Source: Rhodocyclaceae bacterium
GTDB taxonomy: Bacteria > Pseudomonadota > Gammaproteobacteria > Burkholderiales > Rhodocyclaceae
NCBI GenBank assembly: GCA_030682175.1
Contig: JAUXOM010000152.1
Span: 28,787 to 92,786 of the forward strand
Direction of reading: 5' to 3'
DNA length: 64,000 nt
Part shown: positions 4,088 to 60,549 of the stretch, piece by piece
Numbering within the stretch: position 1 is the stretch's first letter
How the letters are laid out: every line of letters begins with the position of its first letter
Translations under genes and position numbers: made by a program
The notes under the pieces: model-generated
What the model saw: the letters and a program-made list of their open reading frames with translations, nothing else
Told to the model about the DNA's origin: nothing
Database searches by the model: none

Positions 4088-4196
4088 GGCTATGCCTCCG
4101 CCGGGCCGCCCCAAGGAGGCATACACCCCCCTGTGGGGGGCAGCGAGCCGGGTTTGTGACCGAAGGAAATCCCTGTGGGACGAGCGTGGGGGGGCA

Positions 4197-7339: not shown

Positions 7340-9159
7340 CGCGCTTGCTCCCTGTCGATTTCGATGTAAGGGGGCTGCGGACCGGGATTGTTGGCGAAAA
7401 AATCCTTGTTTGGCAACTGGCCGGCAAAACCCCGATAGTCGCCGGCGACACTCGGATCCCGGATGACCGTGGGCTTGAGGAAGATCACCAATTCGGTTTT
7501 GGTGCCAACGTCCTTCCGCTGGGTGAAGAAGTTGCCGATACCAGGTACTTTCGACAGGAACGGGACGGCATCTGTGGTGTTGTCGATCCGATCTTCCATC
7601 AACCCCCCCATGACAGCGATTTCTCCATCGGTGAGGCGCAGCATGGATTCCATTTCACGTGTCTGGATTTCCGGCACGATATTCTGTATGTCTGACGGAA
7701 TGCTCGGGTTGGGATCTCGTTTCCCAGGGCCTTTCAGGCTCGAAATTGTTGGGCGTACGTTGAGCAGGATAATGTTGGTATCGCTGATCTGTGGCGTCAC
7801 GCTCATTACCAGCCCGACAGAAACTGAATTTGGTGTGGTTGTCACTGTAGTCTGCGTCGGACCGCTGGCGGTGGTCGTGGTGTCGGCCTTGACGGTGAAA
7901 TAGACAATATTCTCCACCACCTTGAGCATGGCGGTCTGGTTGTTGAGCACGCTGATCTTCGGGCTGGACAATACCTTGACGTTACCGAAGGTCTCCAGCA
8001 ATTTCAGGGTGCCTGCAATATTGAGGCCGGGAGCAACGTAGTTGAGCAGGAACGACTTGCTGGTATCGGCGCCGCCAGTTGCCGAAAATACAGGACCGGA
8101 TGGCGACTGCGTCATGGAGAATCCCGCGCTGCCGGTGCGTAACCGTTGCCAGTTGATGCCTTGCTCGTATTGGTCGGTAAGTCGTACTTCTGCAATGGTC
8201 GCTTCGATCATTACTTGCCGCCGCGAGTTTGTGAGCACCTGATCAAGGAACCCCTGTACTTTCTCATGCTGTCGTGCGGTGGCGCGCACGACGATGACGC
8301 CGGCCTCCGGATTGACGATGACCGAGGCGGCCTCGCGGAAGGTGGTGCGCCGGGTGACCGTCGTGCCGCTTTGCTGAAAAGCCGCCGGGTTGGGGCTGGC
8401 AGCCAGATTCTGTGCTGCATTGACGCCGCGCCCCGTTGTCACTGGCTGGGGCGCGCCCGTGCCGGTCGTGGCTTGTTCATCCTGTCGCTCCACAACGGTT
8501 TCGCTGGAGCCTTCGGGCAGGATTTTGTCTGTTTCACGCAGGATGTCCTTGAGGTTCTTTTCGAGCGACTCCCAGAAGTTGTTCTTGGCTTTGCTGGTCA
8601 CGGTGGTTGAAGAATTATTGCCGCCGCCCGCCGTGCCACCGCCGGTCGTCGCAGCCGGACTGGCTGAAGCAATCTGGGTGTTGATCGCCACGGTGCCGGA
8701 TACTTCACGCGACATATTGACGTAATCGACCCGGTAGTTTCTCAGGAATGGCGAATCCGGCATGACGGCCAGATTGGGCCCGTCGAGTTCCCAGCGCACA
8801 TCGACCTGCTTGGTGATGCGGGTCAGCAGTTGTTGCAGCGTCTGGTCGATGGCATTCAAGGTCACCACCCCTTCGATGCCAGGGTGGATGTCGACGTTGA
8901 GCTTGGCATCGCGGGCGAGGGCAAAGAGTAATTCCTGCACGCGGACGTTGTTGACGACAACGCTGTAGGTCTCGACCTTGGGAGTTGCTTTGGGTTTGGG
9001 CAGTGCCAGGATTTGCTGGACCGGCGCCGGAATGGACGCCGTATCGCCAGCGCCGACTTTTTCGGCACTTAAATGGCCGCTGCCCGGCTGCTGGATCGGC
9101 GCATTGCTGCAAGCGGAGACGAACAACACCAGTGCAGGAATGAGGGGCAGTCTGTTCAT
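7336..9159 (-). CDS. mshL: secretin, PilQ/MshL-like outer-membrane channel
   Basis: Lipoprotein signal (LVLFVSACSN), secretin domain (RQVMIEATIAEVRLTDQYEQGINW; VPFLSKVPGIGNFFTQRKDVGTKTELVIFLKPTVI). Confidence 0.85.
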   Translation of the reverse strand: MNRLPLIPALVLFVSACSNAPIQQPGSGHLSAEKVGAGDTASIPAPVQQILALPKPKATPKVETYSVVVNNVRVQELLFALARDAKLNVDIHPGIEGVVTLNAIDQTLQQLLTRITKQVDVRWELDGPNLAVMPDSPFLRNYRVDYVNMSREVSGTVAINTQIASASPAATTGGGTAGGGNNSSTTVTSKAKNNFWESLEKNLKDILRETDKILPEGSSETVVERQDEQATTGTGAPQPVTTGRGVNAAQNLAASPNPAAFQQSGTTVTRRTTFREAASVIVNPEAGVIVVRATARQHEKVQGFLDQVLTNSRRQVMIEATIAEVRLTDQYEQGINWQRLRTGSAGFSMTQSPSGPVFSATGGADTSKSFLLNYVAPGLNIAGTLKLLETFGNVKVLSSPKISVLNNQTAMLKVVENIVYFTVKADTTTTASGPTQTTVTTTPNSVSVGLVMSVTPQISDTNIILLNVRPTISSLKGPGKRDPNPSIPSDIQNIVPEIQTREMESMLRLTDGEIAVMGGLMEDRIDNTTDAVPFLSKVPGIGNFFTQRKDVGTKTELVIFLKPTVIRDPSVAGDYRGFAGQLPNKDFFANNPGPQPPYIEIDREQAR

Positions 9160-17874: not shown

Positions 17875-19423
<1,549 letters not shown>

Positions 19424-24410: not shown

Positions 24411-25487
24411 CTAGCGGCGGCCTGAAGCATCGACAATTTCCCGCAACGCGGCCACCAGCGCCGCGCACTGTTCGTCGGTTCCCACGGTGATGCGCAGGAA
24501 CTGTTCGATGCGCGGCAGCTTGAAGTGCCGCACGATGATGCCGCGCTGCCGTAGCGCCAGCGCCGACTTTTCGGCGTCGTGTTTGGGATGGCGGGCAAAC
24601 ACGAAATTGGCCGCCGAAGGCAGTACCTCAAATCCCAGCGATTCCAGGTCGCGTGTCAATGCAGTGCGGGTGGCGATCACCGCTTGCCGGGTACGCTCGA
24701 ACCATTCGCGATCCTCGATGGCGGCGGTGGCGCCGACGCTGGCCAGACGGTCGAGCGGATAGGAGTTGAAACTGTTCTTGACACGCTGCAGGGCATCGAT
24801 CAAATCGGCATGACCGACGGCAAACCCGACGCGCAGTCCGGCGAGCGAACGCGACTTGGAGAAGGTCTGCACCACCAGCAGGTTGGGATAGCTATTGACC
24901 AGCGCGATGGCTGATTCACCGCCGAAGTCGATGTAGGCCTCGTCGACAATGACCACCGCATCCGGATTGGCCTTGAGCAGTGCCTCGATGTCGGCGCGCG
25001 GCAGGGCACTTCCGGTCGGGGCGTTCGGATTGGGAAAGATGATGCCGCCGTTGGGCCGGGAATAATCGGCCACCCGCAGGGCGAAGTTGTCGTCAAGCGG
25101 GACGGTCTGATGCTCGATGCCATAGAGCCGGCAATAGGCTGGATAGAAACTGTAGGTGATATCGGGAAACAGGATCGGCAAGTCATGTTTCAGCAGGGCC
25201 AGAAAGGCGTGCGCCAGCACCTCGTCCGAGCCATTGCCGATGAAGATCTGATTGGGTGCGAGATTGCCGAAAAAGGCCGCGATGGCCTCGCGCAGCCGGG
25301 TACTTTCCGGGTCTGGATACAGTCGCAAAGAATCGTTGATCTCACCACGCAAAGCTTCCAGGGCAAGTGGGCTCGGACCATACGGATTCTCGTTGGTATT
25401 GAGCTTGACGAGATTGGGCAGTTTGGGTTGTTCGCCCGGTACATAGGGCTGCAAGGCGCGGACAGTCGCGCTCCAGAATCGGCTCAT
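24411..25487 (-). CDS. hisC: histidinol-phosphate aminotransferase HisC (inverted relative to the other his genes)
   Basis: [32 protein letters not shown] (PLP lysine). Confidence 0.93.
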
Positions 25488-30278: not shown

Positions 30279-31057
30279 TGGAAGCGCGCGAAGAGAGTTT
30301 CATTTCCCATCTGGTCGAATTGCGTGACCGGTTGATCCGCACCCTGGTGGTAATGCTGGTGATTTTTCTCGGCCTCGTCCATTGGGCACGGGACATCTAC
30401 TCGCTGTTGGCGGCGCCCATGCTCGCCGCGCTGCCCGAGGGCGGCCACATGATCGCCACCGATGTGGTCGGCGCCTTTTTCGTGCCGATCAAGGTGACCA
30501 TGATGGTTTCCTTCCTGATCGCCCTGCCGTATGTGCTCCATCAGGCCTGGTCCTTTGTCGCACCGGGCCTGTATGCCCACGAGAAGAAACTCGCCGTACC
30601 GCTGCTGTTCGCCAGCGTCGTGCTGTTCTTCATCGGCATGTCCTTTGCCTACTTCATTGTCTTCCCGACGGTGTTTGCCTTCATCAATGCTTTCGCTCCG
30701 GAAGGGGTGGCGGTGATGACGGACATCGAGAAATATCTTTCCTTCGTCCTGACGACTTTTTTGGCTTTTGGCCTCACCTTCGAAGTGCCGGTAGTGGTGA
30801 TCGTGCTGGTGCGGGTGGGTTTGGTGACGGTGGAGAAGCTGAAGGAAATCCGCCCCTACTTCATTGTCGGTGCCTTCATTGTCGGCGCCATCTTCACCCC
30901 GCCGGACGTACTTTCCCAATTCATGCTGGCGGTGCCGATGTGGCTGCTCTATGAATTAGGCATCCTCATGGCACAGGTGATCGGCAAGTCTTCCCGTGCC
31001 GAGGATGGTGCCTATCGGCCCGCCCCTCCCGACCTCCCCTCGCGGGGAGGTGACTGA
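30278..31057 (+). CDS. tatC: Sec-independent translocase TatC
   Basis: ESFISHLVELRDRLIRTL; six-TM TatC sequence. Confidence 0.95.
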   Translation: MEAREESFISHLVELRDRLIRTLVVMLVIFLGLVHWARDIYSLLAAPMLAALPEGGHMIATDVVGAFFVPIKVTMMVSFLIALPYVLHQAWSFVAPGLYAHEKKLAVPLLFASVVLFFIGMSFAYFIVFPTVFAFINAFAPEGVAVMTDIEKYLSFVLTTFLAFGLTFEVPVVVIVLVRVGLVTVEKLKEIRPYFIVGAFIVGAIFTPPDVLSQFMLAVPMWLLYELGILMAQVIGKSSRAEDGAYRPAPPDLPSRGGD

Positions 31058-31272
31058 GTTTTTGCCTACGGCCGACGCTACGCGTCTTAACGCCGGTAGT
31101 GCCGGCATTAGCCTGCGCCGCAACGGCGCGACTTACGTCGCTTGTTGTCGCTACGCTCGTTCGTTACGGGACACTGCGTGGTGATTTTGGCGCGGATTGC
31201 GGCTGGCGCCGCGTGCCGCCTTTCCTCATTGGCCAATGAGGGCGGCCCGGCGGAAAGGCTACTGCGCCGGAA

Positions 31273-32457: not shown

Positions 32458-33225
32458 ATGCTGCGTGATGATCTGGGCGCCTATCTGGACGGCTTGCTGG
32501 AAACGGCGCGCTTTCGGGATTATTGCCCAAACGGGTTGCAAGTGGAAGGGCGCGCCGAGGTGCGACGCATCGTCTGTGGCGTTACCGCCAGCCAGGCATT
32601 GATCGAGGCGGCGCTGGCAGTCGCGGCCGATGCGATCCTGGTACATCACGGCTGGTTCTGGAAGAACGAGGATGGCCGGGTCACCGGGTTTCGCAAGCGC
32701 CGCATGCAGGCCTTGCTGGCGCATGACATCAACCTGTTCGCTTATCACCTGCCGCTCGATGCGCACGGCGAACTCGGCAATAACGCCCAACTGGCCACGC
32801 GGCTGGGGTGGACCGTGACAGGGCGATTTGCCGAGCAGGATATCGGTTTCCTCGGCGTTCCCGCTGCGGGGCATTTCATACCGCCAGCGCCGACTTTGGC
32901 CGACGACCTGGCGGTGCAGGTCGGGCAGGTGTTGGGGCGCACCCCGCTTCTGGTGGGCGATGGCCGGCGTATCGTGAAGACCGTGGCCTGGTGTACCGGT
33001 GGTGCCCAGAGCTATTTCGAGCAGGCCATTCTGGCGGGTGCCGATCTGTATGTCAGTGGCGAGATTTCAGAAAACACCGTGCATCTGGCGCGGGAGTCGG
33101 GTGTGCCTTATCTCGCGGCCGGGCACCATGCCACCGAGCGTTATGGTGTGATGGCACTGGGGCGGCATCTGGCCGAGCGCTTCGATGTGGTCTGCGATTT
33201 TGTCGAACTCGACAACCCCGTGTAG
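32458..33225 (+). CDS. Nif3-like dinuclear metal centre protein
   Basis: [41 protein letters not shown]. Confidence 0.92.
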
Positions 33226-34458: not shown

Positions 34459-35010
34459 TCAGCCGGGCTTTAGGCGCTCGGTAAAACGTTTGCGCAGCTT
34501 CGCCACCTTGGGTGCGACAACGGCCTGGCAATAGCCTTGCGTGGGGTTGCGGGCAAAGTAATTCTGGTGATATTCCTCGGCGGGCCAGAAAGTCGGCGCT
34601 GGCAGGACGGCGGTCACGATCGGAGCGGACCAGATGCGCGCTGCGTCGAACTCCTTGATCAGGGCTTGTGCCTCCGCAGCCTGTGCCGATGAATGGGCGA
34701 ATACCACCGAGCGGTATTGGCTGCCAATATCATTACCCTGGCGGTTCAGCGTCGTCGGATCATGTATGGTGAAAAAGGCCGTGAGCAGGGTGCGATAGTC
34801 GATGATGGATGGATCGAAGTCGACGCGCACTACTTCGGCATGGCCGGTATCGCCAGTACAAATCTGCTGGTAAGTCGGGTTTTCGACCGCACCACCGCTA
34901 TAGCCCGAGGTGACCGCGATCACCCCGTCGAGCAGTTTGAGAGCCGCCTCGATGCACCAGAAACAGCCGCCACCCAGAGTAGCCTGGGCGGCTGGGACAA
35001 TGGTGGTCAT
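34459..35010 (-). CDS. msrA: peptide-methionine (S)-S-oxide reductase MsrA
   Basis: LGGGCFWCIEAAL; YHQNYFARNP. Confidence 0.95.
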   Translation of the reverse strand: MTTIVPAAQATLGGGCFWCIEAALKLLDGVIAVTSGYSGGAVENPTYQQICTGDTGHAEVVRVDFDPSIIDYRTLLTAFFTIHDPTTLNRQGNDIGSQYRSVVFAHSSAQAAEAQALIKEFDAARIWSAPIVTAVLPAPTFWPAEEYHQNYFARNPTQGYCQAVVAPKVAKLRKRFTERLKPG

Positions 35011-35343
35011 GGCCGGGGCGGGGCTTTAACGTGAAACAACATCGTAGCGTTTGCGAAGGGACGCCCCGAGCAAACGCGGCACGCGGCGAAGCCGCAAACC
35101 GCACCTGTGCCAGAAAGAGCGCCCCGTGACAGACGAGCGCAGCGAGCATTCCCGAACCCCCCGCGAGGGGGGGGGAGGGGGGTGGGCCACTTTCATGATC
35201 GGGGGCGAAGCCAACGCATCATGAAAGTTAAGCGAGATGCCCGAACCAGATGCCTTCATGTTTTTTGCCTCCCGGGGTGTGGGTAAAAATGGTGGCAGCG
35301 CAATAAGCAATACAACAATAAAATTGAGCATGCGAACTCTATC

Positions 35344-42426: not shown

Positions 42427-43380
42427 ATGGCACTGTTTCTATCCGAAACCGATGTGCGCCAGTTACTGACCATGGATCTGGCGCTCGAAGCCGTCACCAC
42501 AGCGCATGCCGCCCATGGCCACAATCGCGCCATCGACATTGCCCGCCAGCGCACCCGGACGCCGACATCCACGCTGCATATCCTGCAAGCTGCGCTGCTC
42601 GACGAGGGCGTGATTGGTTACAAGGCTTACACGACAGCGCGTGCGGGCAAACGCTTCATGGTGCACCTGTTCAACGCGGCGACCGGCACACCGCTGGCGG
42701 CGATCGAGGCCGATTTCCTGGGGATGATGCGCACCGGCGCTGCCGGCGGGGTGGCGGCAAAAGTTTTATCCCGGCCGGAAAGTGCGGTGGTTGGCCTGAT
42801 CGGCGCCGGCTGGCAAGCCCAGGGCCAATTGGAGGCGCTGTGTCGGGTCCGCTCGATCCGACAAGTCAGGCTGTATGCGCGCGATGCCGGGAAGCGCCGT
42901 CGCGCCAGCGCCGACTTTTCAAGTCGCTTCGGCGTCGAAGTGATTCCCGTGGATAGCGCAGAAGCCGCAGTGCGCGACTGCGATATCGTTGTCACCATCA
43001 CCGCAGCGGCCACGCCATTGTTCGACGGCAGTTGGCTGGCGGCAGGAACCCATATCAATGCTGCCGGCTCGAATGCCCTGATCCGCCGTGAGATCGACGA
43101 GGAGACGGTGGCCCGTGCGGCCGTGGTGTGCGTGGATAGTCGGCCGACTGCCATGCGCGAGGCGGGCGACTTGCTACCGGCGCTGGAAAAGGGGCGCCTT
43201 GCCGAAGGCCAACTTGTCGAACTGGGCGAGATCATTGCCGGCATCCGGCCGGGACGACCGGATGCCGGAGCAATCACCCTGTTCGAATCGCAGGGCATGG
43301 CCATCCAGGACCTGGCGGTCGGGGTACGCCTGCTCAAACTGGCACAGCAGCAGGGACTTGGTGCGGAATTGCCCTATTGA
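42427..43380 (+). CDS. ornithine cyclodeaminase/mu-crystallin family protein
   Basis: VGLIGAGWQAQGQLEAL; AAGTHINAAGSNALIRREID. Confidence 0.88.
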   Translation: MALFLSETDVRQLLTMDLALEAVTTAHAAHGHNRAIDIARQRTRTPTSTLHILQAALLDEGVIGYKAYTTARAGKRFMVHLFNAATGTPLAAIEADFLGMMRTGAAGGVAAKVLSRPESAVVGLIGAGWQAQGQLEALCRVRSIRQVRLYARDAGKRRRASADFSSRFGVEVIPVDSAEAAVRDCDIVVTITAAATPLFDGSWLAAGTHINAAGSNALIRREIDEETVARAAVVCVDSRPTAMREAGDLLPALEKGRLAEGQLVELGEIIAGIRPGRPDAGAITLFESQGMAIQDLAVGVRLLKLAQQQGLGAELPY

Positions 43381-49692: not shown

Positions 49693-51306
49693 ATGGACGC
49701 TGACGGATTGCCAGACTGCCTGTTCCGCCGGCTGGAACAACTCAACGAGATTGGCGCGGCGCTTTCCAGCGAACGGGATATCGATCGCCTGCTGGAAAAA
49801 ATCCTGCTGGCGGCCAAGACCATCACTCGCGCCGATGGCGGCACGCTCTATCGCATGACTGACAACCGTCAGGCGCTGCGCTTCGAAATCGTCCGCAACG
49901 ACAGCCTCGGCATCGCCCTGGGTGGCACGTCCGGCAATCCGATCGACTATCCTGACCTGCCCTTGCAGGACGAGCAGGGCGCGCCCAACAATTCGCTGGT
50001 CGCTGCCTTTGCCGCCCTCAATGACAGCACCGTCAATATCGCCGATGCCTACAGCGCGGCTGGTTTCGATTTTTCCGGGACGCGCAAATTCGATGCGCGC
50101 ACCGGCTATCGTTCGTGCTCGTTCCTCACCGTGCCGATGAAGAACCATGAGCACGAAATCATCGGTGTCCTGCAACTGATCAATGCGATCCACCCCGAGA
50201 CTGCTGCCGTCGTACCGTTTTCGCTGGCTGCGCAGCGCCTGGCCGAATCGCTGGCCTCGCAGGCCGCCATCGCACTGACCAATCGCCTGCTGATTTCCCA
50301 GCTGGAGATACTCTTCGAATCATTCATCAGGCTCATCAATCACGCCATCGACGAAAAATCGCCTTACACCGGCGGCCACTGTCAGCGGGTGCCGGCCTTG
50401 ACGATGATGATGGCCGATGCGGTCAATGCAACAAGCGCGGGGCCGCTCGCCGATTTCACGATGTCCGAGAGCGACCTCTATGAACTGAAGATTGCCGGGC
50501 TGCTGCATGACTGCGGCAAGGTGACCACGCCCGTGCATGTGGTCGACAAGGCCACCAAGCTGCAAACCCTGTTCGATCGCATCGAGCTCATCGATACCCG
50601 CTTTGAAGTGCTCAAGCGCGATGTACAGATTGCCGCCCTGCGCAAGCAGCTCGAGCTGCGCGCAAGTACGGACCCCGCAGCCGAAAGTGCCTGCTGGGCC
50701 GAGTGCCGCCAGGAACAGGCCGCGCTCGACGATGAGCGGGCCTTCCTGCGCCGCGCCAACATCGGCAGCGAGGCGATGAGCCAGGCAGACCAGCAACGCG
50801 TGCGCGACATCGGCACGACCCGCAACTGGCGCAACCCGGCCGGCGTCGATGCCGATTTTTTGACGGCCGAGGAAATCGAGAATCTTGCCATTCGTTCCGG
50901 TACCCTAACCGCCCGGGAACGCGAGACCATCAACCATCACATCGTTGCCACCAACAAGATGCTCGAGGCGCTGCCGTGGCCCAAGCACCTGCAACGTGTG
51001 CCCGAATATGCCGGCGGTCACCACGAACGCATGGATGGCACCGGCTACCCGAAGGGCCTGACCCGCGAGCAGATGTCGCTGCAGGCCCGCATGATGGGTA
51101 TTGCCGACATTTTCGAGGCGCTGACGGCCCAGGACCGGCCCTACAAGTCAGGCATGCTGCTGTCGCAGGCCATCGAAATCATGAAAAAATTCAGCAAGAA
51201 CGGCCACATCGACCCCGATCTCTTCGCGGTGTTTTTAAGGGAAGGTGTGCATCTCCGCTACGCGGAATGTTTTCTCGATCCGGCGCAGATCGATCTGGTG
51301 AACTAA
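49693..51306 (+). CDS. GAF + HD-GYP domain protein (putative cyclic-di-GMP phosphodiesterase)
   Basis: GAF N-terminus; LLHDCGKVTTP; GGHHERMDGTGYPKGL. Confidence 0.9.
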   Translation: MDADGLPDCLFRRLEQLNEIGAALSSERDIDRLLEKILLAAKTITRADGGTLYRMTDNRQALRFEIVRNDSLGIALGGTSGNPIDYPDLPLQDEQGAPNNSLVAAFAALNDSTVNIADAYSAAGFDFSGTRKFDARTGYRSCSFLTVPMKNHEHEIIGVLQLINAIHPETAAVVPFSLAAQRLAESLASQAAIALTNRLLISQLEILFESFIRLINHAIDEKSPYTGGHCQRVPALTMMMADAVNATSAGPLADFTMSESDLYELKIAGLLHDCGKVTTPVHVVDKATKLQTLFDRIELIDTRFEVLKRDVQIAALRKQLELRASTDPAAESACWAECRQEQAALDDERAFLRRANIGSEAMSQADQQRVRDIGTTRNWRNPAGVDADFLTAEEIENLAIRSGTLTARERETINHHIVATNKMLEALPWPKHLQRVPEYAGGHHERMDGTGYPKGLTREQMSLQARMMGIADIFEALTAQDRPYKSGMLLSQAIEIMKKFSKNGHIDPDLFAVFLREGVHLRYAECFLDPAQIDLVN

Positions 51307-51428
51307 AAGTCGGCGTGACCGCAGGGAATCCCGTGGGACTGGCGGGACGGCGAGCGAGATCACCGATGGACTTTAGCTGGGAGGCCTGCCAGGATTAGTC
51401 CAGTTGCTTAACCAAGTTGGAGGCGGTG

Positions 51429-52794: not shown

Positions 52795-52842
52795 AATCAG
52801 TAAAAGGGGCCAGGCTCGAATCAGTAAAAGGGGCCAGGCTCG
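52795..52842. repeat. 24-bp perfect tandem repeat, two units (AATCAGTAAAAGGGGCCAGGCTCG)
   Basis: Units 52795-52818 and 52819-52842, followed by AATTAAATTAA. Confidence 0.9.
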
Positions 52843-52925: not shown

Positions 52926-53390
52926 TCAGCGCAGCATTTCCGGATTCATCACCGCCCGTAATACCGTTTGATCCTGTCCTTCGCGGCTGCGCCTGGAGAA
53001 CCACCAGACGCCGCCTTTCTTGATGATCCAGTCGGCTTCGCATCCGCCCAGCAGCAGGGCGGCGAGCCTGCCGAGCGCGGGTTGATGGCCAACCAGTAAA
53101 ATGGCGCCCGAGTAAGCCGGCCATTCAGTGACGGCGATCAGATGGGCGGCATCGGCCCCGACGGCCATCCTGGATTCGACTTCGAAAGGCAGGGCGAGCG
53201 TGTGTGCGGTTTGCAGGGCGCGCACCGCCGGGCTGACCAGTATTTTGACTTTTTTCGGCATCTGCGACTTGAGCCATTTGGCCATGTCGTGGGCCTGTTT
53301 TTCGCCGCGCGCGGTCAGGCGGCGTTTCTTGTCCGGGAGGTTTTTGCCAGCTTCCTCGGCTTCGGCATGGCGCCATAAAATCAGGTCCAT
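52926..53390 (-). CDS. SixA-type histidine phosphatase (copy 1)
   Basis: MDLILWRHAEAEE..LTARGEKQAHDMAKWLK..LVGHQPALGRLAALLL. Confidence 0.88.
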   Translation of the reverse strand: MDLILWRHAEAEEAGKNLPDKKRRLTARGEKQAHDMAKWLKSQMPKKVKILVSPAVRALQTAHTLALPFEVESRMAVGADAAHLIAVTEWPAYSGAILLVGHQPALGRLAALLLGGCEADWIIKKGGVWWFSRRSREGQDQTVLRAVMNPEMLR

Positions 53391-53571
53391 TCATCTCTCC
53401 TGGTTTTTTTAGTATTTGCGGGAGCGGAAAGATAGCCTGCCAAGGTTATCGCCTGATGACAAACCGGCGCCGTCTCGCCAGCGCCGACTTTCAGTTACGC
53501 TTGCCGCCAGATCCTTTAAACAGTCTTGCACGCCTGTGCGCGAATGACCGGGTATGGATATTCCGAACGGA

Positions 53572-53961
53572 TCACGTGCCGTCTGGCAAGGTTTTCACGA
53601 AATACTTCACCTGCGGCAATCCCTCGAAATGGGCATCCTGGGTAAGGATCGTGGCGTTGTGCAGGATGGCGGTGGCGTAGATCAGCGCATCGGCCATGGG
53701 CAGCTGTTTTTCGATACTGATTTTCCCGGCATACAAGGCAATGGCTTCATTCACATCGAGCACTTGCCCCTGCTTGAGTTGGGCAATAGCCTGAAATGCC
53801 TTGTTTTCGTCGTACGCGAGGGTAATTTTCTTGAAGACTTCGTACAGCACGATGCTGGGCACCAGCAGTTCATCGGTATTCTCGATGGCGGTGGCGTAAT
53901 TCTCGGCAAGCGGCGAGTCCGCGAAGTATTCCAGCCAGCCGGATGTGTCCACGATGTTCAT
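53572..53961 (-). CDS. PIN-domain toxin
   Basis: MNIVDTSGWLEYFADSPLAENY; overlaps the AbrB-like antitoxin gene. Confidence 0.88.
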   Translation of the reverse strand: MNIVDTSGWLEYFADSPLAENYATAIENTDELLVPSIVLYEVFKKITLAYDENKAFQAIAQLKQGQVLDVNEAIALYAGKISIEKQLPMADALIYATAILHNATILTQDAHFEGLPQVKYFVKTLPDGT

Positions 53962-54173
53962 GGGCGATCGTCTTCCCGGTCGAAGTCGGTGTCCATGCCT
54001 TTGAGCATACCACGGGCCGCTTGCATCGGCCGGACAGGGATGAACTCGATGCGGTCACCGTATTGAACGACTTGCATGTGAGTGCCAGCTTTGAGCTTCA
54101 TTGCTTCGCGAATGTGCTTGGGTATCACGAGCTGGAACTTGGGGGAAAGTGTGAGCGTGTTCATGGCATCCAT
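53958..54173 (-). CDS. AbrB/MazE-family antitoxin
   Basis: MNTLTLSPKFQLVIPKHIREAMKLKAGTHMQVVQYGDRIEFIPV. Confidence 0.9.
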   Translation of the reverse strand: MDAMNTLTLSPKFQLVIPKHIREAMKLKAGTHMQVVQYGDRIEFIPVRPMQAARGMLKGMDTDFDREDDRP

Positions 54174-54290
54174 CCTTCAATTGGGTAACGAAGTATAGAT
54201 CGATAAGTAAATAGTGGGTAAATGGGTGACGGTCATGGGCTGATCGGCAATGCGCTGCTTTTGCCTTGACCTGCCTGTGTCGAAGCCGAG

Positions 54291-54779
54291 TCAGCGCAGC
54301 ATTTCCGGATTCATCACCGCCCGCAATACGGCCAGATCGTGATTCTCGCGATTGCGCCTGGCCAGCCACCAGATGGCGCCTTTCTTGATGCTCCAGTCGG
54401 CTGCCGTGCCCGAAAGCAGCAGGGCGGCAAGTTGGCCGAGCGTGGGTTGGTGGCCGACCAGCATGACGGCGCCAGAAGCCTCGGCTGCCTTGGCTGCAGA
54501 TTGTCCAGACAGGCGCGCGGCATCGATGAGGGCGGCGATATCCGCGCCGCAGGCAATCCGTGGCTCGATCTCGAAAGGCAGCGCCAGGGCGTGAGCGGTT
54601 TGCTGGGTGCGCGCGGCGGGGCTGACCAGTATCTTCAACTTTTTCGGCAGCCGTGGCTTCAGCCACTTGGCCATGTCGCGCGCTTGTTTTTCGCCGCGCG
54701 CGGTGAGGCGGCGCTCGGCATCGGGCACGTCGAAACCACCGTCTTCGGCTTCGGCGTGGCGCCAGAGAATCAGGTCCAT
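54291..54779 (-). CDS. SixA-type histidine phosphatase (copy 2)
   Basis: MDLILWRHAEAEDGGFDVPDAERRLTARGEKQARDMAKWLK; identical C-terminus VLRAVMNPEMLR to copy 1. Confidence 0.88.
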   Translation of the reverse strand: MDLILWRHAEAEDGGFDVPDAERRLTARGEKQARDMAKWLKPRLPKKLKILVSPAARTQQTAHALALPFEIEPRIACGADIAALIDAARLSGQSAAKAAEASGAVMLVGHQPTLGQLAALLLSGTAADWSIKKGAIWWLARRNRENHDLAVLRAVMNPEMLR

Positions 54780-54781
54780 CG

Positions 54782-56389
54782 TTATTTGCTCCGTGTGTTG
54801 TCTGCTGCGCCGGCCAGTTTCGGCAGGCGCAGCCGGCCCAGTTGCTTGAGTCCGGCCGGCACGGCCTTCAGCAGCTTGTGGTGGCGCGGTCCATGCCAGC
54901 CGCCGATCAGGGTGACGGCTTCGCGCAGGCGCGGGTCGCCGCCCTGTTCGTGGGCGCAGTCCATCAGCAATTCGCCCGCGCTGGCGAGGTCGTTGATCTG
55001 TCCCAGCGTGTCTTGCAGCTGGGTCAGGTGGGCGAGCATGCGGCGCATGGCTTTGGGCGCGGCGAGCGGGGTGAAGAACTCCAAGGCATAGCGCAGCCGC
55101 TTGATATCGATGCGCAGCGCGTGCAGGGACGGCGGATTGTCGACGCGGGTTTGCGCGGCGAGTGCCAGCACCTTCTTGCGCAGGCGGCGCAGACGGCTTC
55201 TGGCGAAGGCCAGCAGGGTGATCGATTCCTCGTGCGTTTCTTTTGTCGCCGTCTCGCCAGTCCCACGGGGATTTCCTGCGGTCACGCCGACTTTTGCGGA
55301 TACGAGTGGCGCATGCAGCGCCGCCAGCGCCTGCAGGACGATGCTGCCGTAGCGCGGTGAGGCCATGAAGCGCAGGGCTTCCTGCCGGGCAGCGAAGCGG
55401 CGCTCGGTGATGATGCCGACCAGGGCGGCGAGGCGTGGTTCTTTGGGCAGGGCTTCCAACACCGGCGCGGCGATTTCGGCGAGTAAAACGTCGAAATCTC
55501 GGGCCTGGCCCAACACATTCATCAGATCGCGCAGCGGTTGCAACAGTTGTGCGGCGAAACCTTCCGGCAATATGGGGCCGAAGAGCCGCACCGCGGCGCG
55601 CAAGCGGCGCGTCGCGATGCGCATCTGGTGGATATATTCGGGGTCGGCGCTGTTGCAGGCAAGCGCGCCCGGATGATTGCGCTGCAGGTGGTCGAGGCAG
55701 CCCAGCGCAATCTGGCGGAAGGCCGCGGCGGGTGCCGCGCCGGCATCGAGTGGCATGGCAACGGCCTTGACCGGCGCATTGGGTGCCTGCTTGAACAGCT
55801 GGCTGCCGCGATCGGCTTTCGACAATGGTGCCGGCGCCAGCGGGATGCGTTCGGCGAAGGTTTGCGCCAAGGCGAGCAACTGCATCGGGTCGCCTTCGAT
55901 CAGCTCGATCTCGACTTCCGAGATGGCCTGGCGCTGGCCGGCGGCGGCGATCCAGCCACGGTCGAGCATCACCGCGATGCGCGTGCCGGGCGTCGTGGTG
56001 AAGAACCAGGTGATGCGCAGGAAATTGGTCTCGAAGATCGGTGCGATGTTTGTCTTGAGCTTGGGGCGGTCAAGCCATGAGCGAACTGCGTCATCGTCGA
56101 TGGCGCTAAAGTCGAAGTGCCCGGCGTAGGGCGTTTCCCACTCGGGTCGGGCGGAGAGCCCACCCGCCGCGTGGCCGGAGCATTTGACCGTCTGCAGCCA
56201 CTGCCCGTTCTTCGCGCGCAGCCGCAAGCCGATGCCGCGTTCCCGCAGTGCGAGCCGTGGGGTGTCGTAATACAGGTTGATCAGGCGGAACGATTGCTTG
56301 TTCGTTGCCTGCCGGAGCAGCGGGTGACGCAAAAACTTGCGCTGGGCATCTTCCGGCAGGGCCAGTTTGAGTTCGATTTCTTCAGCCAT
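54782..56389 (-). CDS. CYTH and CHAD domain protein, with repeat-encoded in-frame segment
   Basis: MAEEIELKLALPEDAQ (CYTH ExExK), IHQMRIATRRLRAAVRLF and LHALRIDIKRLRYALEFF (CHAD); KVGVTAGNPRGTGETA encoded at 55247-55294. Confidence 0.9.
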   Translation of the reverse strand: MAEEIELKLALPEDAQRKFLRHPLLRQATNKQSFRLINLYYDTPRLALRERGIGLRLRAKNGQWLQTVKCSGHAAGGLSARPEWETPYAGHFDFSAIDDDAVRSWLDRPKLKTNIAPIFETNFLRITWFFTTTPGTRIAVMLDRGWIAAAGQRQAISEVEIELIEGDPMQLLALAQTFAERIPLAPAPLSKADRGSQLFKQAPNAPVKAVAMPLDAGAAPAAAFRQIALGCLDHLQRNHPGALACNSADPEYIHQMRIATRRLRAAVRLFGPILPEGFAAQLLQPLRDLMNVLGQARDFDVLLAEIAAPVLEALPKEPRLAALVGIITERRFAARQEALRFMASPRYGSIVLQALAALHAPLVSAKVGVTAGNPRGTGETATKETHEESITLLAFARSRLRRLRKKVLALAAQTRVDNPPSLHALRIDIKRLRYALEFFTPLAAPKAMRRMLAHLTQLQDTLGQINDLASAGELLMDCAHEQGGDPRLREAVTLIGGWHGPRHHKLLKAVPAGLKQLGRLRLPKLAGAADNTRSK

Positions 56390-56399
56390 GAGATTTCCC

Positions 56400-56730
56400 T
56401 TTAGTCTTTCCGCCGGGCCGCCGCACCATGTCCAATGAGGCAAGACGGCACGCGGCGCCAGCCGCAACCCCCACCGTAGCACCAAGAGTGCTCCCCGTGA
56501 TAAACGAGCATAGCGAGTCAACAGTCACCTCCCCGCGAGGGGAGGACGGGAGGGGCGGGTGGGACGGGAGAGGTGGGTATAGCCTTGCCGCCGGGCCGCC
56601 CCAAGGCAAGGCGGCACGCGGCGCCAGCCGCACTCCGCTCCCCAGCACGAACGGAGCGCCCCGTAACAGACGAGCGCAGCGAGCAACAGTCACCTCCCCG
56701 CGAGGGGAGGACGGGAGGGGCGGGCGTCTA
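56400..56730. repeat. two adjacent copies of a dispersed GC-rich intergenic repeat
   Basis: GGCACGCGGCGCCAGCCGCA..CGAGCGCAGCGAGCAACAGTCACCTCCCCGCGAGGGGAGGACGGGAGGGGCGGG present twice; core also at 541-585, 31196-31255, 35062-35100 and 60300-60345. Confidence 0.88.
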
Positions 56731-58797: not shown

Positions 58798-60069
58798 TCA
58801 GAACATCCGTGGGGTCGCCAGCTTCGGCTTTTCGGCTGCAGCCGTGCCGACAATGAATTCGCGGCCCTCGGCCAGATCGCCGTCGAGCAGTTCGGTCTGG
58901 GTGCCATCGTTGATGCCGGTCTTGACCTCGATGAGCGTCGGCTTGCCATCCTTGCCAAGCATCCAGAGCTTCCCGCTGGTGCCCGCTCGGTTTCCGCCTT
59001 TGCCCATGCCGCTACCGCCGCCTCCACCACTGCCCGGCTGCCGTGCTGCCGGCGCCGACTTTTCATCGCTGGGCGGGCGGAAGCGCAGCGCGGCGTTGGC
59101 GATCTTCAGCACGCTGTCCTTATGGGCGGTGGTGATGCGCACATTGGCCGTCATGCCGGGCAGCAGGATCAGGTCGGGGTTGGCGGCATCGATGATGACG
59201 GTGTAGGAGACGACGTTCGACACGACCAGTGCCGACTTGCGCACCTGGGTAACGGTGCCCTTGAAGCGTTTGCCGGGGAAGGCATCGACGGTAAACGTCG
59301 CCTCCTGGCCAGTCTTGAGCCGGCCGACATCGGCTTCGTCGATGGCGGTTTCGACCCGCATGTCGGCAAGGTTCCTGGCGATGACGAACATTTCTGGCGC
59401 CTGCAGGCTGGCCGCCACGGTCTGCCCCGGTTCGACGCTGCGCTTGATGACGATGCCATCGGCCGGAGCGCGAATTTCGGTGCGACCAAGATCGACCTGG
59501 GCCTGTCCGAGCTGCGCGCTGCGCTGCTTGACGAGCGCCTCGCTATTTCTTCCCTGCGCCTCGACGACGCGCTGCTGGGCGCGCGCGGCTTCGAGCAGGG
59601 TCTGCGCCTTATCGAGTTCGGCCGGAGAAATGAAATTCTTGTCCACCAGGGTTTTCTTGCGCGTGTAATCGCGCTCGGCATCCATGAGATTGACCTTGGC
59701 GCGATACAACTCGGCCTGCTGCACGGACACCGTGGCGCGCGCCGCCTCAAGGTCTGCCTCGGCCTGCCGCACGCGGTGCTCATATGTTTCCGGGGCCAGT
59801 TGCGCGAGCAGTTGGCCGGCCTTCACTGCGCTGTTGTAGTCGACCAGTATTTCCCGAATCTGCCCGGAAATCTGCGAGCTGACCTGCACCGACACCACCG
59901 GGCTGAGCGTGCCGGTCGCGGATACCGACGCCGTGATCGGGCCGCGTTCGATGGCGGCGAATTTATAGGCGGTGCTGTCGGCCGGGTCGGCAAAATACCG
60001 ATAGGCGGCATAGCCACCTCCCAGCAGGGCGAGGGTCAGGGCGGCAAGGGTCAGGCGGCGCAGTTTCAT
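58798..60069 (-). CDS. MacA/HlyD-family periplasmic adaptor
   Basis: MKLRRLTLAALTLALLGGGYAAYRYF; SATGTLSPVVSVQVSSQISGQI; operon with ABC genes. Confidence 0.9.
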   Translation of the reverse strand: MKLRRLTLAALTLALLGGGYAAYRYFADPADSTAYKFAAIERGPITASVSATGTLSPVVSVQVSSQISGQIREILVDYNSAVKAGQLLAQLAPETYEHRVRQAEADLEAARATVSVQQAELYRAKVNLMDAERDYTRKKTLVDKNFISPAELDKAQTLLEAARAQQRVVEAQGRNSEALVKQRSAQLGQAQVDLGRTEIRAPADGIVIKRSVEPGQTVAASLQAPEMFVIARNLADMRVETAIDEADVGRLKTGQEATFTVDAFPGKRFKGTVTQVRKSALVVSNVVSYTVIIDAANPDLILLPGMTANVRITTAHKDSVLKIANAALRFRPPSDEKSAPAARQPGSGGGGGSGMGKGGNRAGTSGKLWMLGKDGKPTLIEVKTGINDGTQTELLDGDLAEGREFIVGTAAAEKPKLATPRMF

Positions 60070-60549
60070 TTTTTCATTGTAGCCGAAGCCGCCACCATGA
60101 AAAAACGGCGCCGTACCGCCAGTCCCACGGGGATTCCCTGCGGTCACGCCGACTTTTACAGACCCTTGCGCCTAACTTTCATGATCGGGGGCGAGCGCCT
60201 CCGATCATGAAAACGCCCGCCCCCTTTGCCCCCCTCGCGGGGGGTTCTTAACGGCTCGCTGCGCTCGCGTATCACGGGGTGCTCCGCTCGGATGCATGTG
60301 CGGGTTGCGGCTGGCGCCGCGTGCCGCGTTTGCTTGGCAGCCCTCAATCCCTCTCCCGCAAGCGGGAGAGGGAAGCTATCTGCCTCCTCTCTCCCACTGG
60401 GAGAGAGGTCGGGAGAGAGGGATTGGCCCGGCGCAAACGCTGCGACAGGTGTGGATTTAACGACGTCCCACCAGCGCCGACTTTCACACTAACTTTCATG
60501 GTCGGCAAGGCCGCCCAGAATAATGAAAGTCTTACGTCATGCCAGTTAA

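Follow-up and report, generated by a model that had tools for sequence, protein, structure and literature searches.

The window analysed here, a stretch of 64,000 nucleotides from a Rhodocyclaceae genome, contains a gene for a CYTH/CHAD protein with a 48-bp repeat in its CHAD domain. The question raised by this locus is whether the repeat is present there as a peptide or as a signal at the level of DNA. The features concerned are:

54782..56389 (-): host gene, CYTH/CHAD protein of 535 aa, intact
55247..55294 (-): long form of the repeat (48 bp), read in frame as KVGVTAGNPRGTGETA within the linker of the CHAD domain
55261..55284 (-): nested 24-bp core TGACCGCAGGAAATCCCCGTGGGA, present in no other CHAD orthologue found

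The host protein has a CYTH domain (E 1e-19) and, over residues 227-475, a match to CHAD (E 9e-55); the 16 residues encoded by the repeat occupy positions of about 366-381, in frame within the CHAD domain as the sequence-only reading of this DNA had it. On the minus strand the long form reads AAAGTCGGCG, TGACCGCAGGAAATCCCCGTGGGA and CTGGCGAGACGGCG in succession and is composed of the 24-bp short form into which a 24-bp core is set at a constant position. In the alignment the solved CHAD structure 6qv5 is gapped at the segment, which places it in a variable CHAD loop.

In eleven congeneric orthologues (L101-L111) the same linker contains the short form or a variant of it and reads KVGAGGTA or similar, while the outgroup orthologues (L112-L122) have unrelated, mostly shorter linkers. 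The 16-aa segment occurs in none of these orthologues; the check proposed in the sequence-only reading thus came out in its favour, as no repeat-free orthologue carries the segment and the repeat-bearing ones have the short form or a variant. With the short form or its variants in the eleven congeners and no repeat in the outgroups, the short form is of long standing here, and gain of the 24-bp core in this species is the simplest account. The nested module TGACCGCAGGAAATCCCCGTGGGA preserves the reading frame and adds eight residues to the variable linker. In the congener G009, whose CHAD orthologue is 87% identical overall, the nested unit is another one, GGGATGAAATGCCCCGAAGCGGGTACGGCG, of 21 bp; two further congeneric orthologues have extra units downstream.

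The repeat is not confined to this gene. In the own genome (G000; 3.49 Mb in 153 contigs), searches with up to three mismatches returned 572 short forms, 29 long forms (39-bp pattern) and 54 cores, against no match to the reversed pattern of any of the three; therefore the 48-bp repeat is not due to chance. The 24-bp repeat, AAAGTCGGCGCTGGCGGGACGGCG, accordingly amounts to about 570 copies in a 3.5-Mb genome, and 88-525 copies (up to two mismatches) were present in 17 of 18 congeners. The sole congener without it, G006, has a CHAD orthologue of merely 41% identity and may use another dialect or be misplaced. In sampled sequence (456 kb of G000 including the window, 790 kb of G009 and 800 kb of G028, a member of another genus; genes were called with a simple hexamer caller), the motif formed the most over-represented 12-mer family, providing the top 12-mers in G000, G009 and, in a dialect of its own, G028. 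Its density in the sampled segments was 0.14-0.19 per kb. The 24-bp logo is sharp, with a strong 5' core, a weak spacer and a weaker 3' ACGGCG; its ends, AAAGTC and ACGGCG, are non-complementary, and the short form has neither a palindrome nor terminal inverted repeats. Inverted pairs within less than 100 bp numbered 0, 0 and 1 in 85, 139 and 114 copies, respectively, and no terminator-like pairs were seen.

Copies in the 456 kb of the own genome are genic and intergenic and lie equally on both strands; genes make up 88% of this sequence, yet only about 56% of the copies (up to four mismatches). Genome-wide, the spacing is roughly random. The motif is better conserved between G000 and G009 than its surroundings, with 91.3% identity vs 83.3% in the flanks at 21 in-gene sites, and 88.5% vs 74.8% at intergenic sites, of which there were just four. 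A polar signal of the Chi or KOPS type was rejected, as no replichore polarity was detected in three G028 segments. Gradual drive through many mismatches was likewise discarded: the excess of sequences with 3-5 mismatches also occurs in G028 and is hence compositional. One lower-GC stretch resembling a Mu-like prophage (G000:C25:1-20000, L145) has no strong motif copy, which is consistent with a motif marking resident DNA in this one case (n=1). Motif deserts were set aside as markers of foreign DNA: the largest motif gap in G000 (C25, about 20-44 kb) contains, by inspection, housekeeping genes of the nusA/infB/ftsH type.

Within the window, the following further copies were located:

4157..4180 (+): copy of the 24-bp core within another repeat (CAGCGAGCCGGGTTTG / CGAGCGTGGGGGGG)
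9037..9060 (-): short form, read KVGAGDTA, in the N-terminal linker encoded by an MshL-type secretin gene
18311..18334 (+): murA copy of the short form (KVGAGGTA) with a downstream extension, an insertion of about 16 aa relative to solved MurA
24547..24570 (-): short form (three mismatches) in hisC, frame EKSALALRQ; homologues have the same length
32874..32897 (-): short form plus 21-bp module (GGTATGAAATGCCCC...), just upstream of the gene for a Do-like protease
34589..34612 (+): short form in msrA, read antisense as TAVLPAPTF, ungapped against solved MsrA
42895..42918 (-): short form in a gene of the ornithine-cyclodeaminase family, read antisense as RRRASADF, ungapped against 6t3e
51305..51352 (+): long form whose core lacks one C; it overlaps the TAA stop codon that ends the gene at 49693-51306
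53468..53491 (-): short form, intergenic
59039..59062 (-): degenerate short form (four mismatches) in a HlyD/MacA-type gene
60109..60156 (-): intergenic long form on the upstream side of the HlyD/MacA-type gene, which starts at about 60069
60461..60484 (-): short form (two mismatches), intergenic

The copy at 60109-60156 is real, with a match of 91% over 54 bp, in agreement with its earlier description as nearly identical. Its supposed reading as VTAGNPRGTGGTA in an overlong open reading frame did not hold up: that frame is a mechanical extension, the most likely start of the HlyD/MacA-type gene being 60069 (-), and the copy is therefore intergenic. The degenerate copy at 59039-59062 may be decayed or forming. 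The copy at 51305-51352 shows that outside reading frames the 48-bp length is not strictly maintained.

The CHAD copy was confirmed to be read in the same strand and frame as the copies in murA (18311) and the MshL-type gene (9037). This KVG frame is indeed shared by the three genes, but genome-wide it is just one of four frames used by in-gene copies; KSALAGRR belongs to another, and the two Arg/Trp-rich frames are almost empty. Among the long forms within sampled genes, 13 are read as KVGVTxGNPRGTGGTA, five are antisense, and none lies in the frame with a TGA stop. The use of frames therefore looks like filtering by protein tolerance and not like a designed peptide. With copies on both strands and in four frames, a peptide-coding insertion of fixed strand and frame was rejected.

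The notion that the repeat inserts into proteins was borne out in part. Solved MurA lacks about 16 residues and solved MetH 12 residues at the motif, so the copies in these two genes are real insertions; the additional 12 aa of MetH correspond to a long form in the gene. It is above all copies in the KVG frame that can be of this kind. In contrast, the 24-mer leaves the length unchanged in MsrA (TAVLPAPTF vs TEILPAKKF), in the ornithine-cyclodeaminase-like protein (6t3e) and in HisC, all of which align without gaps to solved homologues at the motif, and which argues that the motif was written there by substitution. The ABC-F copy likewise has the same length as in G028, and of seven in-gene copies of G028 with an orthologue in G000 or G009, six are unchanged in net length, including two located elsewhere in the CYTH/CHAD protein itself; the samples of orthologues for this comparison were small. 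G000 and G009 (86% nucleotide identity) have short motifs mostly at the same sites, and their differences at shared sites are mainly whole 24-bp cores or 21-bp units. The signal thus arises at least partly by substitution within genes, and the several short copies at conserved protein positions of unchanged length point to a signal in the DNA and not in the peptide.

The long forms add a second level. Nearly all of the 40 distinct cores for which sequence was available are within the motif; two, including that at 4157 in the window, are in a different repeat. At the sites compared, the insertion of the core is clean and without target duplication; the 21-bp unit can be tandem. Precise nested micro-insertions lengthen proteins by 7-8 residues. 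Intergenic and genic copies have modules of equal length, except for the 51305 copy, which is one base short, and the module lengths hence look intrinsic and not selected by frame. The core was also observed inside an unrelated GC-rich repeat (CAGCGAGCCGGGGTTG / CGAGCGTGGGGGGG) at window positions 4157-4180 and at L051:1501-1524, suggesting that movement independent of the motif is possible. No transposase was linked to the modules.

G028 contains almost no copies of the 24-mer. Its top over-represented 12-mers define the motif AAAAGTCAGTC-N8-ACGGCG (AAAGTCAGTC-N8-ACGGCG), which is identical to the motif of the own genome in the six bases at each end and in the 24-bp span from AAAGTC to ACGGCG and differs in the middle, which is weakly conserved in G028. 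Across 151 genomes of the family, AAAGTC-N12-ACGGCG occurs in tens to hundreds of copies in about ten genera, compared with single-digit controls. The middle is GGCGCTGGC in g1, g2, g62, g70 and g88, GGTGCTGGC or GGCGCTGGC in g9, GACGCTGG in g69 and AGTC in g11. The ends and the length are common across genera and the middle is genus-specific. Some variation concerns the 3' end: copies in the congener G002 mostly end in ACGGCA, and in G017 exact ACGGCG ends are few and ACGGC many. Four genomes (G034, G096, G097 and G168) contain a few copies of several dialects at once, similar to the 'peregrine' DUS of Neisseria; either transfer or assembly contamination may be the cause. In 398 genomes sampled from the order the signal was limited to the family, save one genome with 18 matches, a weak case. 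A text search of the literature with the motif strings returned unrelated papers only, and the family-wide bipartite signal AAAGTC-N12-ACGGCG is apparently unreported.

Self-specific DNA uptake by genomic tags has been described for Neisseriaceae (PMC3630211) and Pasteurellaceae (PMC1939737), and the motif was compared with both. Similar to the DUS of Neisseriaceae, for which dialects are known and, in Neisseria, about 1900 copies per 2.2-2.3 Mb are reported (PMC3630211), it is the top over-represented motif, occurs on both strands in genic and intergenic DNA, and has lineage dialects around conserved positions; ComEC and ComP_DUS-family pilins are present in the genomes, motif-free ones included. 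Unlike DUS, it is a 24-bp bipartite motif instead of one of 10-12 bp, its density of 0.14-0.19 per kb falls short of the level of about 1 per kb (DUS, about 0.8 per kb or more), inverted terminator pairs are missing, and 24- and 21-bp modules are nested in it. It shares with the USS of Pasteurellaceae (PMC1939737) a long, non-palindromic motif with a strong core and a weaker flank; uptake sequences of that family are reported to evolve by point mutation in genes and proteins (PMC1939737), as at least some of the copies here probably did. Its 15-bp core and fixed second half-site are unlike USS, and no sequence relation is claimed. Hundreds of short dispersed copies are also typical of the REP/REPIN elements moved by RAYT (PMC3116915); in contrast to these, the motif is neither palindromic nor paired and is common in genes. 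Mobilisation of the RAYT/REP type was rejected, PF01797 (Y1_Tnp) having no match in 13 of the 17 motif-carrying congeners, including the closed genome G017. The nested 24-bp core is also like small dispersed repeats in being a tiny precise insertion inside other repeats. Cyanobacterial SDRs are small dispersed repeats of this kind. The core here, in contrast, is almost confined to one motif. Dispersed repeats of about 20 bp that are possibly mobile are mentioned in PMC2884548.

Taken together, a non-palindromic, non-polar, dialectal motif that is apparently largely written by substitution and conserved above its flanks most likely fits uptake sequences better than transposable repeats. The long form in the CHAD gene is, somewhat probably, a site of a dialectal, bipartite signal resembling DNA uptake sequences, with modules nested at fixed positions in some copies. 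With moderate confidence we suggest that the motif works like an uptake sequence; it is not filed as a member of the DUS or USS class because its density is lower, inverted pairs are absent, and it is longer and bipartite. The CHAD long form would then be an old site of the genome-wide 24-bp signal AAAGTC-N12-ACGGCG (AAAGTCGGCGCTGGCgggACGGCG in this genus) that later gained the nested module TGACCGCAGGAAATCCCCGTGGGA in this species with the frame intact. A type IV pilus receptor would prefer DNA bearing the local dialect, and through biased uptake followed by recombination, positions that tolerate the motif would slowly acquire it. A second layer would be formed by the 24- and 21-bp modules, gained or lost precisely at fixed positions inside the motif; their spread by copying from one motif copy to another in the course of recombination is a guess. 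ComEC was found in 149 and a ComP_DUS-family pilin in 139 of the 151 family genomes, the own genome being included in both (pilin gene at G000:C132:41998-42219), and no ComP_DUS match was obtained in G086 (24 motif copies) and G177. Since motif-free relatives possess the competence and pilin genes too, these genes are compatible with uptake and not diagnostic.

Two other readings of the DNA have to be weighed. A very small mobile or selfish element of the RPE, MITE or SDR kind, kept where it falls in frame and with the long form as a composite of two, seems unlikely to us. The residues gained in frame by MurA (about +16 aa) and by MetH (+12 aa), the clean nested 24- and 21-bp insertions at orthologous sites and the core within an unrelated repeat would agree with it, and the Rickettsia palindromic elements, dispersed repeats in frame inside unrelated proteins, provide a precedent for in-frame insertion (PMC10969869). 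However, those elements are about 150 bp long, whereas the forms here measure 24-48 bp, many copies were apparently made by substitution, and genus dialects exist. Several short copies leave the length of conserved proteins unchanged, inverted ends are missing, the short copies are common to G000 and G009 and not polymorphic, RAYT is absent from most carriers (the 13 congeners above), and dialects with fixed ends and length are hard to derive from a transposon. A binding site for a chromosomal protein whose role is not in uptake but in nucleoid organisation, segregation, repair or recombination is similarly improbable: the bipartite, non-palindromic 24-bp layout with a weak middle in G028, the conservation above the flanks and the roughly random spacing would suit such a site, but an orientation bias of the Chi or KOPS kind along the chromosome is lacking, copies in the samples are not restricted to one chromosomal region, high copy number and lineage dialects match uptake sequences better, and no candidate protein was identified.

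A reading of the 16-aa segment as a normal functional element of the CHAD domain, under selection as a peptide, we regard as very improbable. The segment is in frame within an intact, conserved gene; nonetheless, among the orthologues found it is present in this species only, outgroups and 6qv5 have unrelated, mostly shorter linkers, and the same DNA also occurs between genes and in the antisense frame.

Returning to the uptake-like signal, a more far-reaching version holds that the family-wide signal with its genus dialects marks self DNA for uptake, does so independently of the Neisseriaceae and the Pasteurellaceae, and offers a fixed landing site to the 21- and 24-bp micro-modules by which proteins are lengthened in frame; we put it forward tentatively, as possible though rather doubtful. 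If true, the evolution of uptake specificity and of dialects could be tested directly in a further lineage, one that has many sequenced genera and a bipartite signal of different build. Even if the function is other than uptake, in-frame 'repeat peptides' can be by-products of a signal in the DNA.

The window contains other repeats and duplications. At 52926-54779, in an assignment made by eye, two copies of a gene for a SixA-like phosphatase (76-79% identical DNA) flank a toxin-antitoxin pair, with the toxin gene, PIN-domain-like, at 53572-53961 and the antitoxin gene, apparently of AbrB type, at 53958-54173. A further family of dispersed GC-rich repeats (TTGGGGCGGCCC / GGCTGGCGCCGCGTGCCGC), which ranks second among the over-represented 12-mer groups of both the own genome and G009, is located at 530-668, 31018-31235, 35046-35182, 56415-56720 and 60220-60337. 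Lastly, a perfect 24-bp tandem duplication, AATCAGTAAAAGGGGCCAGGCTCG, lies at 52795-52842.
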